Below are positions 5,464 to 24,260 of a stretch of 64,000 nucleotides of DNA, piece by piece (the first letter of the stretch is position 1; each line of letters starts with the position of its first letter). The position numbers and the translations under genes were made by a program. This stretch comes from a bacterium (GTDB taxonomy: Bacteria > Chloroflexota > Dehalococcoidia > Tepidiformales > Tepidiformaceae), in the NCBI GenBank assembly GCA_003577245.1, contig QEVS01000007.1, positions 1 through 64,000 on the forward strand, in the 5' to 3' direction. The notes under the pieces were generated by a model. The model did no database searches. It saw nothing but the letters and a program-made list of their open reading frames with translations, and was not told the DNA's origin.

Positions 5464-5819
5464 TGGTGGAGACGCGGGGGAGTTGAACCCCCGGTCCAGC
5501 GAAGTTCAGCTCCGGATTGTCCTACAGGCTTTCCCACCGATTCGGGTCTTGCCGGGAGCGTCAGTGGTGGTCCCCATGCCACCCGGCCAGCCGATGAGTC
5601 TTTCGCGGCCGTTATCGGCGTCGAACCGCGGCACCCTGGCATTGCGTCGTTCCCGGTAACCCCACCAGGGCGAGGGTCGCCGGGAACGTCGTCGCTACTT
5701 AAGCGGCGAGAGCGAGTTGGCGATTGCCAGTTATTTTCGGCCGCCTGATTTACGAGGGTGACAGCCAACCTCGGCCTGCTATCCGGCTACCTAGCCCCCT
5801 GTCGAATCCTTTCGTCCCC
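5464..5819 (-). ncRNA. ssrA: tmRNA (SsrA), tag peptide GNRQLALAA
   Basis: Transfer-messenger RNA of about 356 nt that rescues stalled ribosomes together with SmpB, whose gene lies 9.5 kb away. The minus strand begins GGGGACGAAAGGATTCGACA, the classic tmRNA 5' end, and finishes with a T-arm GGTTCAACTCC-type loop and an encoded CCA. The acceptor stem pairs GGGGACG (5819-5813) with CGTCTCC (5474-5468), including the G-U wobble at the third pair expected of tmRNA. The tag frame reads GNRQLALAA then TAA at 5728-5699; ALAA is the degradation signal read by ClpXP. The tag is only nine residues and starts with Gly rather than Ala, as I recall for Dehalococcoides. The spurious frame reading across it is not a gene. 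Confidence 0.95.
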
Positions 5820-15933: not shown

Positions 15934-17856
15934 TTGGGACGCCTGCTCGATTCCATAGATGACCCCGCAAGCCTGCGCACGCTGTCTTATGCGGAGCTCG
16001 ATGCGCTGGCCGCCGAGATCCGTGAGTTCCTTGTCGAGACCGTGCACTGCATCGGCGGCGGCGGGCACCTGGCCTCAAACCTCGGCGTGGTGGAGCTGAC
16101 GCTCGCGCTCCACCGCATGTTCGATTCACCCCGAGACAAGATCACCTGGGACGTAAGCCACCAGACTTATGTCCATAAGATGCTCACCGGCCGCAAGGAC
16201 CGGATGGCGACCATCCGCCAGTACCAGGGGCTCTCGGGCTTCGCCGACCCCTCCGAAAGCGAGCATGACGCCTTTTCCGCGGGCCACGCCGGCACGGCCA
16301 TCTCGGCTGCCGTCGGCATGGCCGTGGCGCGTGACCTGAAGGGCGAAGACAACCACGTGGTGGCCGTCGTTGGTGACGGCGCTATGACGGCCGGCATGGC
16401 CCTCGAAGCGATGAACCACGCGGGCCACCTGGGGCTCGATCTCATCGTCATCCTGAACGACAACGCGATGTCCATCTCGCCCAACGTGGGCGCGCTGAGC
16501 CGCAACCTGAACAAGCTGCGGGTGGACCCCCTCTATCGCAACGCCAAGGTTGAGCTGGGCAACGTGGTAGAGCACCTTCCCCTGGGCCGGGCGATGTGGC
16601 GCACCGCCAAGAGGCTGAAGACCAGCATGCGCGACCTGCTGGTGCCGGTGCGCTTCTGGGAGCAGTTCGGCTTCGAGTACTACGGTCCGATTGACGGGCA
16701 CAATATCCACGAGCTCGAAGGCACCCTGGACGCAATCAAGAAGGTGCGCCAGAAGCCTGTGCTGCTGCACGTCCTCACGGAGAAGGGGCACGGAATCCCG
16801 GAAGCTGCATCGGACCCCATTCGCAGCCACAGCGGCACCTACTGGATGAAGAAGCCCGGCGAGCCCGGCGCCCCCGTGGCCGGCCCAAGTTACAGCCAGG
16901 TGTTTGCGCAGGCGACGCAGGAGCTGATAGAGCAGGATGAGCGCGTGGTGGCCGTGACCGCGGCCATGCTGGAGGGAACCGGCCTCGCGCCCGTCCATGC
17001 CCGGCACCCCGGGCGCGTGTTCGATGTGGCCATCGCCGAGCAGCACGCCGTCACGTTCGCGGCCGGGCTTGCCACCCAGGGCCTAAAGCCGATCGTCGCA
17101 ATCTATTCCACGTTCCTGCAGCGCGGGTTTGACTCGGTGGTCCACGATGTCGTCGTGCAGAACCTGCCGGTGATACTCGCCATGGACCGCGCAGGGTTCG
17201 TCGGTGACGACGGCAAGACGCACCAGGGTTTCATCGACACGAGCTTCCTGCGGTGCCTGCCCAACATGGTCGTAAGCGCGCCCAAAGACGAAACGGAGCT
17301 CCGCGACCTGCTCTATACCGGGATCATGCACGACGGTCCCTTCTCGCTGCGGTTCCCCCGGGGAGCCGGTCCCGGGGCCCCGGCCGGCCTGCCGATGAAG
17401 GAGATCCCCATTGGCAAGGCCGAGGTGCTGCACGAAGGCAGCGACGTTGCGCTCGTGGGGTTTGGAGCATCGGTAGCGGAGTGCGTGAAAGCGGCCGCCA
17501 TCCTCGCCAATCAGGGTGTGGATGCGACCGTGGTGAACGCGCGCTTCGCAAAGCCACTCGACGAGGCGCTCTTCCTTGACCTGGCACGGAGAATTGGGCG
17601 TGTTGTCACTGTCGAAGAAAACGTTCGCGCAGGGGGTTTCGGCGAGGGCGTGCTGGCGCTGCTTTCGGATCATCAGCTTGCCGGCTCATTCCTGGGGGCG
17701 CTCACGATGCCGGATGCCATCGTCGACCACGGACCGCAGACGACCATGCGCGCGCAGCACTGTGTCGATGCGCGCGGGATTGCAGCTCGCGTGGTTGAGA
17801 TGCTTCGTCCCGACTGCCCCGAGATGAGACCGGGCGAACTCACGCGCTCGCTCTAG
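15934..17856 (+). CDS. dxs: 1-deoxy-D-xylulose-5-phosphate synthase
   Basis: A 640-residue thiamine diphosphate enzyme that condenses pyruvate and glyceraldehyde 3-phosphate, the entry step of the MEP isoprenoid pathway. Conserved elements include SHQTYVHKMLTGR, the AGHAGTAISAAVG stretch, the ThDP/Mg motif GDGAMTAGMALEAMN, ILNDNAMSISPNVG, and in the transketolase-like central domain IAEQHAVTFAAGLA and DRAGFVGDDGKTHQG. Length is typical. The start is a TTG at 15934 preceded by AAGGA at good spacing; there is no in-frame ATG that keeps the conserved LSYAELDALAAEIRE region intact. The prenyl synthase gene begins 2 bases after the stop, so the two are cotranscribed. Confidence 0.96.
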   Translation: MGRLLDSIDDPASLRTLSYAELDALAAEIREFLVETVHCIGGGGHLASNLGVVELTLALHRMFDSPRDKITWDVSHQTYVHKMLTGRKDRMATIRQYQGLSGFADPSESEHDAFSAGHAGTAISAAVGMAVARDLKGEDNHVVAVVGDGAMTAGMALEAMNHAGHLGLDLIVILNDNAMSISPNVGALSRNLNKLRVDPLYRNAKVELGNVVEHLPLGRAMWRTAKRLKTSMRDLLVPVRFWEQFGFEYYGPIDGHNIHELEGTLDAIKKVRQKPVLLHVLTEKGHGIPEAASDPIRSHSGTYWMKKPGEPGAPVAGPSYSQVFAQATQELIEQDERVVAVTAAMLEGTGLAPVHARHPGRVFDVAIAEQHAVTFAAGLATQGLKPIVAIYSTFLQRGFDSVVHDVVVQNLPVILAMDRAGFVGDDGKTHQGFIDTSFLRCLPNMVVSAPKDETELRDLLYTGIMHDGPFSLRFPRGAGPGAPAGLPMKEIPIGKAEVLHEGSDVALVGFGASVAECVKAAAILANQGVDATVVNARFAKPLDEALFLDLARRIGRVVTVEENVRAGGFGEGVLALLSDHQLAGSFLGALTMPDAIVDHGPQTTMRAQHCVDARGIAARVVEMLRPDCPEMRPGELTRSL

Positions 17857-17858
17857 AA

Positions 17859-18881
17859 GTGCCAGCGCTGCCTGCCGCCATTCCGGAGTTCCTGCACACC
17901 CACCGGGTGGACCTGGAGGCCGCTCTCCGCGCGCATGCCGGCGAAGAAGCAACGGAGCTGGCAGCCGCCGCCCGGTACGTCCTCGGCTGGGAGGACGAGC
18001 ACGGGCGCGCGAGCGAGGCCGGGGGGAAGCGAATCCGCCCCCTCCTCTGCCTCTTCGCCGCGGAAACCCTCGGGGCCCCCGTGGCGGACGCCATGCCCGG
18101 GGCGGTGGCTGTCGAGCTGATCCACAATTTCTCGCTGGTGCACGACGACGTGCAGGACCGCGACGCCCTCAGGCACGGCCGCCGAACCGCATGGACACTT
18201 CATGGCGAAGCCCAGGCAATCAACCTCGGCGACTACCTCTACACCCGGGCGGTGGAAGCCCTCGCACGGGCAGAGGGTCCGGTAGGACGCCGCATGGCTG
18301 CGCTGGCGACGCTGCTCGACGCGACGCGCCGCATGATCGAGGGGCAGTGGCTGGACGTCAGCTTCGAATCGCGGGATGCGGTCACAGCGAATGAGTACGT
18401 GGCCATGGTGGCGGGAAAGACCGGGGCCTTGCTGGGAGCATCCCTCGCCATGGGCGCCATCCTTGCCGGCGCGCCTCCCATCTATGCCCCTGCGCTTGCA
18501 CGGTGGGGTGAGCATGCGGGCATCGCCTTCCAGCTTCGCGATGACTACCTTGGGACGTGGGGTGACCCCGGCGAAACCGGCAAGCCAGCAGGGGGAGACA
18601 TCGCGCGGCGCAAGAAGAGCCTGCCGATTGTGCTGGGATTGCAGGATGCAACGGCGGCTGCCGTCATCAGGGAGGTCTACGCCCGCGAAACAGTCGATGA
18701 GGCGGGAGTCGCGGCCGTGCTGGCCGCCCTGGATGCAGCCGGTTGCAGGCGTGCCTGCGAGACGATGGCGGCGGAGCATTCTGCGGGGGCGGCCGCCCTC
18801 TTGCGAGAGATCCCGCTTGCGGCAGAGTCCCGGCAGCGCTTCTCCGAGGTGGCGGCCTACCTGGTGGGGCGCCAGTTCTGA
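17859..18881 (+). CDS. polyprenyl (geranylgeranyl-type) diphosphate synthase
   Basis: A 340-residue trans-prenyltransferase extending isoprenoid chains from IPP and an allylic diphosphate. The first aspartate-rich motif is DDVQD (96-100) in LIHNFSLVHDDVQDRDALRH; the substrate-binding GGKRIRP is at 55-61. The second motif reads FQLRDDYLGTWGD (D228, D229, then G where the last Asp usually sits), a variant common among actinobacterial-type enzymes. Chain length cannot be deduced confidently; the bulky Phe91 and Leu93 region before the first motif fits a short to medium product. It starts with GTG 2 bases after dxs and probably uses the DXS-derived C5 units. Confidence 0.9.
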   Translation: MPALPAAIPEFLHTHRVDLEAALRAHAGEEATELAAAARYVLGWEDEHGRASEAGGKRIRPLLCLFAAETLGAPVADAMPGAVAVELIHNFSLVHDDVQDRDALRHGRRTAWTLHGEAQAINLGDYLYTRAVEALARAEGPVGRRMAALATLLDATRRMIEGQWLDVSFESRDAVTANEYVAMVAGKTGALLGASLAMGAILAGAPPIYAPALARWGEHAGIAFQLRDDYLGTWGDPGETGKPAGGDIARRKKSLPIVLGLQDATAAAVIREVYARETVDEAGVAAVLAALDAAGCRRACETMAAEHSAGAAALLREIPLAAESRQRFSEVAAYLVGRQF

Positions 18882-18884
18882 TGT

Positions 18885-18913
18885 TTGCGCGTTCGCTCCT
18901 GCTGGCCTAGGTT
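18885..18913 (+). promoter_or_regulatory. promoter of the acetyltransferase gene, probably leaderless
   Basis: TTGCGC (18885-18890), 17 bp, TAGGTT (18908-18913), then 6 nt to the GTG at 18920. The spacing implies transcription starting at the GTG. Confidence 0.45.
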
Positions 18914-18919
18914 CCGTCC

Positions 18920-19501
18920 GTGTTCGAGAACGTTCGCGAGGACATTGCCCGGGGGGCCCGGTGGCATGATGTCCCGGCGGTGCGCCGGCTTTTCGGGGAA
19001 TCCGGGGTGCGCGCCGCGGCAGTCGTGCTGTCCGGTCCGCTGCAGGCGGTGCTCCTCTATCGAGCGCAGGCGTGGCTTCGTGTGCACCGGGTGCCTCTCC
19101 TGCCAAACATCTGTCATCGGCTCACGATGCTGGCTGCGGCGGTCTCCATCGGGGACTACGCCAACATCGGGCCCGGGCTCCTCATGGCGCACGGGAATGT
19201 CGTCATCGATGGGCACGTGCGGATTGGCCCGCTCTGCTCGATCTCGCCCTTCGTCACCGTGGGACTGAACACCGGCGGGCCCGACCCGTCGCTGACGGGG
19301 CCAACCATCGGCCGGAACGTTTTCATCGGCACAGGCGCCAAGGTGCTCGGGCCAATCACCATCGGCGACAACGCCCGGATCGGTGCGAATGCCGTTGTGA
19401 TGACCGATATTCCCGCCAACTGCACGGCCGTGGGCGTGCCCGCGCGGGTGCTGGAGCACGATGGGCCCCTGGGCCCCGCGAAGGGACCTGGCAGGCAGTA
19501 G
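18920..19501 (+). CDS. serine O-acetyltransferase-like hexapeptide protein
   Basis: A 193-residue left-handed beta-helix acyltransferase. Hexapeptide repeats fill residues 75-170 (IGDYANIGPG, VVIDGHVRIGP, TIGRNVFIGTGAKVLGPITI, NARIGANAVVMTDIPANCTA, VGVPARVLE), including the closing VGVPA motif of CysE-type enzymes. The helical N-terminal domain is shorter and differs from E. coli CysE; the catalytic His-Gly motif reads MAHGNVVIDG (residues 89-98). Acetylation of serine for cysteine synthesis is the best guess, but sugar or other acceptors are possible. It starts with GTG 6 nt after a TAGGTT box and converges on the TetR gene. Confidence 0.78.
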   Translation: MFENVREDIARGARWHDVPAVRRLFGESGVRAAAVVLSGPLQAVLLYRAQAWLRVHRVPLLPNICHRLTMLAAAVSIGDYANIGPGLLMAHGNVVIDGHVRIGPLCSISPFVTVGLNTGGPDPSLTGPTIGRNVFIGTGAKVLGPITIGDNARIGANAVVMTDIPANCTAVGVPARVLEHDGPLGPAKGPGRQ

Positions 19502-22982: not shown

Positions 22983-24191
22983 TCAGGCGGCCGGGCCCTC
23001 CGCGCCCGCGAAACGGAACCCCAGGGTAGCCAGCGCACCGGACAGCGCCAGCTGCTCGCCTTTGAGTGCCGCGCCGGCAAGGACGCGTTTCGCTGCCTCA
23101 TCGAGGTGGTCAAGGGCAGCCGGGACGTTGAAATCGTCGTCCATGGCCGAGGCGAAGCCCTCCCGGACGCGCTGTGCTCCAGGCCCGGGCGCGGCCGGCG
23201 CCTCGGCCGTGATTGCTGAGCGAAGCCGCCCGAACCGGGCCTCAAGGGCCTCCAGAGCGCCTTCGCGGAAGTCCGCGTCGATGCGGTAGTGCGTACTCAA
23301 CAGGTACAGGCGCAGGTGGTCGGGCTCGACCTTCCGCATCAGGTCGCGCGCCAGCACGAGGTTGCCGAGGGACTTGCTCATCTTCACGCCATCGAGCTGG
23401 ACCATGCCGTTGTGCAACCAGTACCCGCAGAAAGGGGCCAGGCCTGTCGTGCACTCTGCCTGGGCGATCTCGTTCTCATGGTGAGGGTAGACGAGGTCGT
23501 GCCCGCCGCCGTGGATGTCAATCTGCTCGCCGAGGTGGGCGATTGACATCGCCGTGCATTCGATGCTCCAGCCGGGCCGGCCGGGTCCCCACGGACTCGC
23601 CCACGACGGCTCGCCGGGCTCCGTCGTCTGCCAGAGCAGGAAGTCGAGCGGTCCCCGCTTCTTGTGCTCGCGCTTGGATTCCGGGTTCTCGCGCTTCGCG
23701 AGCTCGCCAAGGGTCATTCCGCTGAGGGCGCCGTACCGCTCGAACGTGGAGACCTCGAAGAACACATCGCCGCCGGCCTCGTAGGCGAAGCCACGGTCGA
23801 GCAGCCGGGCAGTGGTCTCGATGATCTGGGGGATGTGGTCCGTGGCGTAAGGATTGGCGCTCGGGCGAAGGACATTGAGGCGATCGAGGTCGTGCTGGAG
23901 GATGGCCAGGTTCTCATCGCGTATTTCCGGGATCGGGCGGCCGCCCTGGCGCTTCGAAACCATGATCATGTCGTCGTCGATGTCGGTAACGTTCTGGACG
24001 TACCTCACGTCATTGCCGAGTGAGACAAGGTAGCGGCGGAGAGCATCAAACTGCACGTACGAGAATGCGTGGCCGAGGTGGGTCACGTCGTAGGGGGTGA
24101 CCCCGCAAACGTACATCCTCACCTTGCCGGGCACGACGGTGCGGAATTCGCGGGTCTCATTCCCGAGGGTGGAGTGCAGGCGAAGGGTCAA
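22983..24191 (-). CDS. cysteinyl-tRNA synthetase / MshC-like ligase
   Basis: A 402-residue class I ligase that activates cysteine. The HIGH-equivalent is THLGHA (37-42), KMSKS is at 270-274, and the zinc site is kept (C29, C212 in ECTAMS, the HHENE cluster at 237-241). E. coli CysRS has 461 residues; here only about 128 residues follow KMSKS, so the tRNA anticodon-binding region is shortened or absent. The N-terminal MYVCGVTPYDVTHLGHAFSY is closer to mycothiol ligase MshC (TPYDATHLGHA) than to CysRS, whereas GGHDLVYPHHENEIAQ is CysRS-like. It could be a divergent short CysRS or a thiol-biosynthesis enzyme. TTG start with GGAG 7 nt upstream. Confidence 0.75.
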   Translation of the reverse strand: MTLRLHSTLGNETREFRTVVPGKVRMYVCGVTPYDVTHLGHAFSYVQFDALRRYLVSLGNDVRYVQNVTDIDDDMIMVSKRQGGRPIPEIRDENLAILQHDLDRLNVLRPSANPYATDHIPQIIETTARLLDRGFAYEAGGDVFFEVSTFERYGALSGMTLGELAKRENPESKREHKKRGPLDFLLWQTTEPGEPSWASPWGPGRPGWSIECTAMSIAHLGEQIDIHGGGHDLVYPHHENEIAQAECTTGLAPFCGYWLHNGMVQLDGVKMSKSLGNLVLARDLMRKVEPDHLRLYLLSTHYRIDADFREGALEALEARFGRLRSAITAEAPAAPGPGAQRVREGFASAMDDDFNVPAALDHLDEAAKRVLAGAALKGEQLALSGALATLGFRFAGAEGPAA

Positions 24192-24260
24192 TGGGGTCTC
24201 CGGCGCGGGCTCAACCCAGCGTAGCAGAGCATTCTGGCGGTTGCATAATGCAACTGATAA

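Follow-up and report, generated by a model that had tools for sequence, protein, structure and literature searches.

The gene at positions 22983 to 24191 of the window, by which we mean the whole analysed stretch of 64,000 nucleotides from a member of the Tepidiformaceae (Chloroflexota), encodes a protein that resembles both cysteinyl-tRNA synthetase (CysRS) and the mycothiol ligase MshC. It raises the question of whether this protein charges tRNA or attaches cysteine to a small molecule. The gene was identified from the open reading frame call, profile searches and trees, and the ribosome-binding signal was identified by direct reading of the sequence. The zinc ligands, the THLGH motif and the KMSKS motif named in the original prediction were all located, with C29, C212, H237 and E241 as zinc ligands according to the protein sequence and alignment:

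22983..24191, minus strand: gene for the 402-aa short CysRS/MshC-type ligase, with a TTG start at 24191
24198..24201, minus strand: Shine-Dalgarno-like GGAG, six bases 5' of the TTG start
24066..24113, minus strand: YVCGVTPYDVTHLGHA, containing the first zinc ligand C29 and the HIGH-type ATP motif (THLGH)
23556..23558, minus strand: C212, the second zinc ligand, in GRPGWSIEC
23469..23483, minus strand: H237-E241 (HHENE), the third zinc ligand plus a fourth one of the CysRS type
23370..23384, minus strand: KMSKS loop, residues 270-274

Against the NCBIfam profiles, the short ligase scored 387 bits to TIGR00435 (CysRS), above the cut-off of 340, and 334 bits to TIGR03447 (MshC), below the cut-off of 485, so automatic annotation would call it a cysteinyl-tRNA synthetase; genes of this kind are prone to such misannotation. 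The eight MshC proteins from named Actinobacteria reached 628-745 bits to TIGR03447. The genome that contains the window (2.16 Mb, 72% complete) carries a separate full-length cysS (C6:135919-137307; 467 aa, 478.6 bits to TIGR00435). The short ligase is therefore a second copy, a case that the original prediction had considered, and the possibility that it is the sole housekeeping cysS was ruled out. It is 65 residues shorter than this CysRS, close to the 60 or so estimated originally. Approximately 130 residues follow its KMSKS motif, and short forms in general have about 125-145, versus about 180-240 in CysRS, which indicates that the C-terminal anticodon-binding domain is missing. All Chloroflexota short forms that we examined were about 400 residues long and lacked this domain. 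In a structural search, the alignment of the AlphaFold model of the short ligase (pLDDT 92.6) to E. coli CysRS stopped at residue ~399 of 461. Since the structural Z scores were nearly equal (53 to CysRS and 48 to MshC), the fold cannot decide between the two, and the structural search was dropped as a discriminator. Each of the 18 other family genomes contained an ortholog of the short ligase with intact motifs (69-85% identity; 85% within the genus), and 17 of them had a second CysRS-type match; the remaining genome (G141) showed the short form alone. Homologs of about 50% identity occurred in other families of the class.

The phylogenetic analysis used catalytic-domain columns alone, so that the missing C-terminus has no effect. 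In the first tree (83 proteins, including the eight MshC proteins from named Actinobacteria, all above the MshC cut-off), the short forms fell on one side with actinobacterial MshC, a protein from an actinobacterial metagenome-assembled genome and a Levybacteria protein, with branch support of 100/99. On the opposite side were all 50 CysRS, among them the cysS product of the window's genome, which clusters with the CysRS of two named Dehalococcoidia; the assignment of the host to Chloroflexota rests on this placement. The second tree, to which short forms from the wider phylum were added, split completely, with support of 100, into 64 short proteins (including the eight actinobacterial MshC) and 59 full-length CysRS. 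Within the mostly Chloroflexota short clade the actinobacterial MshC formed one long-branched group, and the branching order inside the clade was weakly supported. A constraint that made the short forms and Chloroflexota CysRS a clade was rejected (p-AU 0.0067). The short ligase thus lies in the same clade as MshC and outside that of CysRS. According to the original prediction, a genome with no other cysS and a position within bacterial CysRS would make this protein the housekeeping enzyme; a second cysS is present and the protein groups with MshC, so both grounds fell away.

Several further genes were noted. Candidatus Levybacteria (Patescibacteria) encodes at L078:1432-2664 a short ligase of 410 aa that falls in the MshC clade, alongside a full-length CysRS (L198) in the same genome. 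The Dehalococcoidia genome UBA2588 (G255) contains two CysRS-type genes of different kinds (L068/L187 and L199), one of them a close relative of the Levybacteria CysRS, and this pair reflects either an acquired copy or contamination. In Microtetraspora niveoalba (G246), a divergent CysRS-like gene of 448 aa (L200) lies beside cysS and mshC.

The positions equivalent to C43, T46, H55, T83, W227, C231, D251 and H256 of MshC, with roles as in the M. smegmatis structure PDB 3C8Z, were invariant across the short forms. At the positions that discriminate MshC from CysRS, the short forms mostly had the CysRS letter or a letter of their own. The fourth zinc ligand is Glu in the short forms (E241), as in CysRS, whereas actinobacterial MshC has Ser there and lacks a corresponding ligand; similarly, the short forms share DIHGGG with CysRS, while MshC has DIQGGG. 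Because the MshC-specific letters are mostly absent and the score stays under the MshC cut-off, the short ligase is best described, at the level of sequence, as a deep variant and not as an MshC equivalog or a proven MshC. The first active-site segment had been predicted to be MshC-like. The TPY...H.GHA pattern is indeed present, but it was also found in ordinary Chloroflexota CysRS, for example as YVCGVTPYSESHVGHA in the full-length cysS of the same genome, and it was abandoned as a sole MshC marker. The diagnostic features are protein length and the tree.

As described originally, CoA-transferase family III genes flank the short ligase gene in the window. At the f1 loci the neighbouring genes encode CoA-transferases, a helicase and an HD-domain protein; in the f95 genomes the neighbour is a TatD nuclease. 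No conserved pathway partner adjoined the ligase across these loci, and genomic context was dropped as functional evidence. Within the 64-kb window the gene is unlinked to mshA or to a PIG-L deacetylase gene; a PIG-L gene within about 5 kb of the short ligase was seen at three f2 loci only. The window also contains a tmRNA gene (5464-5819, minus strand; tag peptide GNRQLALAA), and dxs (15934-17856) immediately upstream of a polyprenyl synthase-like gene (17859-19501, plus strand), whose nearest NCBIfam match, to a family 2 encapsulin cargo, scores 309 bits and so falls under the cut-off of 450. A CysE/EpsC-like hexapeptide acetyltransferase gene follows.

The search for mshA, mshB and mshD yielded MshA-like and PIG-L (MshB-type) genes, none above the curated cut-offs. 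All 14 short-ligase genomes that were tested within the class had one strong MshA-like glycosyltransferase, as did 15 of 16 elsewhere in the phylum (29 of 30 in total), the exception being G275 of lineage f86. In the window's genome this gene (C15:290924-292108) scored 355 bits to TIGR03449 (MshA; cut-off 462) and 112 to BshA. Its product is about equally close overall to C. glutamicum MshA and to the cyanobacterial Tll1590, a sucrose-phosphate synthase. Its acceptor-site residues are GGMN, K78, Y110, T134 and R154, matching C. glutamicum MshA, whereas Tll1590 has GGQN, R, Y, S and R at the corresponding positions. The GGMN/K/Y/T/R set, which binds inositol phosphate in structure 3C4Q, was kept in most phylum members compared. 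The residue comparison was used instead of a tree of MshA-like proteins, which was uninformative, with the single MshA reference forming a long branch and with weak support.

Directly downstream of the MshA-like gene in the same genome lies a PIG-L deacetylase gene with the AHPDDAE motif, an adjacency that is found in most class members tested. The PIG-L proteins scored below every thiol-deacetylase cut-off and were nearest to BshB. Inositol-phosphate synthase was detected in 38 of 39 genomes, including that of the window, with PF01658, which replaced PF07994 because the latter missed the actinobacterial type (the C. glutamicum control was silent). For MshD, the best match in the window's genome, which is 72% complete, reached 27 bits versus a cut-off of 163, and matches of 77-91 bits were seen in some other Chloroflexota. 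An acyltransferase-like gene, assigned to PF13480 in relatives, lies upstream of mshA both here and in Dehalococcoides-like genomes; its product could replace MshD. BshC was detected in none of 38 genomes, with a positive B. subtilis control.

A cluster of PF13480 acyltransferase, MshA-like and PIG-L genes was also observed where no short ligase was found, at L171:8873-11798 and L172:8839-11763 in two Dehalococcoides-like genomes (G013 and G098) and at L285; FemAB-like aminoacyltransferases are among the relatives of PF13480. Conversely, G275 of lineage f86 and the Levybacteria genome G254 have a short ligase and no MshA-like gene at E<=1e-60. As the ligase and the MshA-like/PIG-L cluster do not always co-occur and the ligase gene in the window is unclustered, either the acceptor varies by lineage or other enzymes do some of the steps. 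In lineage f86 (L309, L312 and L313) the conserved neighbours of the short ligase gene encode a membrane protein with DUF2269 and a protein of 178 aa that has no Pfam match, and the ligase of this lineage possibly uses another acceptor.

The second copy, the absent anticodon-binding domain, the grouping with MshC, the conserved active site and the candidate genes for earlier steps are computed results, and from them we infer which reaction takes place, with which acceptor and to what product. The short ligase is probably an MshC-type cysteine ligase that works independently of tRNA, for which GlcN-inositol is the most likely acceptor and Cys-GlcN-Ins, perhaps N-acylated, the product. The enzyme would select cysteine through a zinc-bound thiolate and react it with ATP at the HIGH/KMSKS site to give Cys-AMP. 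The MshA-like glycosyltransferase encoded elsewhere in the genome would form a conjugate from UDP-GlcNAc and inositol phosphate, which the PIG-L deacetylase, together with loss of the phosphate, would turn into GlcN-inositol. The cysteinyl group would then be transferred to the amine of this glucosamine conjugate, and the resulting Cys-GlcN-Ins, if N-acylated, would yield mycothiol or a variant of it as the small thiol of the cell.

The same type of ligase could instead act on another amine, such as GlcN-malate, another amino sugar or a small amine, and thereby make a new thiol or another cysteine-containing metabolite. We regard this as unlikely. In its favour, the active site has CysRS-type residues where MshC has specific ones, the MshC cut-off is not reached, the PIG-L proteins score nearest to BshB, and in lineage f86 and Levybacteria the ligase occurs where no MshA-like gene reaches E<=1e-60. 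These points are set against the MshA-like protein of the window's genome, which resembles MshA far more than BshA (355 versus 112 bits) and keeps the inositol-phosphate-binding residues, and against the presence of inositol-phosphate synthase.

A role in translation seemed considerably less probable. A second, truncated CysRS could charge tRNA-Cys or an unusual tRNA, in the manner of CysRS* of Desulfobacterales, a documented precedent, and the short ligase does pass the TIGR00435 cut-off and has a zinc site of the CysRS type. Nevertheless, the trees, which covered short forms, MshC and full-length CysRS, group it with MshC, and no special tRNA is linked to it: the 64-kb window has only the tmRNA, and ordinary tRNAs lie near other copies. 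CysRS* is, moreover, described from Desulfobacterales only. Finally, the short ligase, as a shortened paralog beside an intact cysS, might be a recent duplicate or a decaying remnant of that gene with no distinct function. We consider this refuted, with a negligible chance of being correct, by the conservation of orthologs with intact motifs throughout the family and by the rejection of a clade with the local CysRS, as given above. The original prediction, a ligase that may form a small cysteine-containing thiol, is supported.

The protective small thiol mycothiol has until now been assigned to Actinobacteria only, and a related ligase is now found in Chloroflexota. Both the short ligase and an MshA-like gene are present in genome G361, which we take to be that of Chloroflexus aurantiacus J-10-fl. 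A 2018 survey found mshA-D confined to Actinobacteria (PMC6282198), and a 2019 commentary (PMC6336425) named Chloroflexus aurantiacus as one of the anaerobes whose novel thiols are unidentified. In the titles and abstracts of the literature searched, we found no report of mycothiol genes in Chloroflexota. For the main thiol of this phylum, the genes described here offer a concrete candidate pathway that can be tested. Our results suggest an origin of the mycothiol ligase outside Actinobacteria or prior to their divergence from these lineages. Whether much of the phylum, probably including Chloroflexus aurantiacus, makes a mycothiol-type or a new cysteinyl-glucosamine thiol through an ancestral form of MshC with a four-ligand zinc site, from which the actinobacterial MshC would have branched off as a derived form, is a proposal to which we give about even chances.

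Among the known systems, the bacillithiol pathway (BshA/BshB/BshC) likewise combines a GT4 glycosyltransferase, a PIG-L deacetylase and a cysteine ligase acting on glucosamine. However, BshC, a protein unrelated to CysRS, was absent from all 38 genomes, and the glycosyltransferase found here matches MshA and not BshA. CysRS* of Desulfobacterales is a truncated enzyme without an anticodon-binding domain that serves selC*-type tRNAs. The short ligase is also a CysRS paralog lacking this domain, but it has no linked selC*-type tRNA and groups with MshC; the comparison is with the published description of CysRS*. With CysRS itself (TIGR00435; PDB 1LI5, 1U0B) the short ligase shares the catalytic fold, four zinc ligands, KMSKS, a score above the cut-off and a slightly higher structural Z, and it differs in the missing anticodon-binding domain, in being a second copy beside a full-length cysS and in its place outside the CysRS clade. 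From actinobacterial MshC (PDB 3C8Z, 8HFM) it is set apart by its score (334 bits versus the cut-off of 485), the Glu as fourth zinc ligand and DIHGGG, its phylum, a gene unclustered with the pathway and a genome without a clear MshD. Nevertheless, it shares with MshC the clade, a length of about 400 residues without an anticodon-binding domain, the cysteine/ATP site, the TPYD.TH.GHA segment, and the co-occurrence with MshA-like, PIG-L and inositol-phosphate synthase genes.
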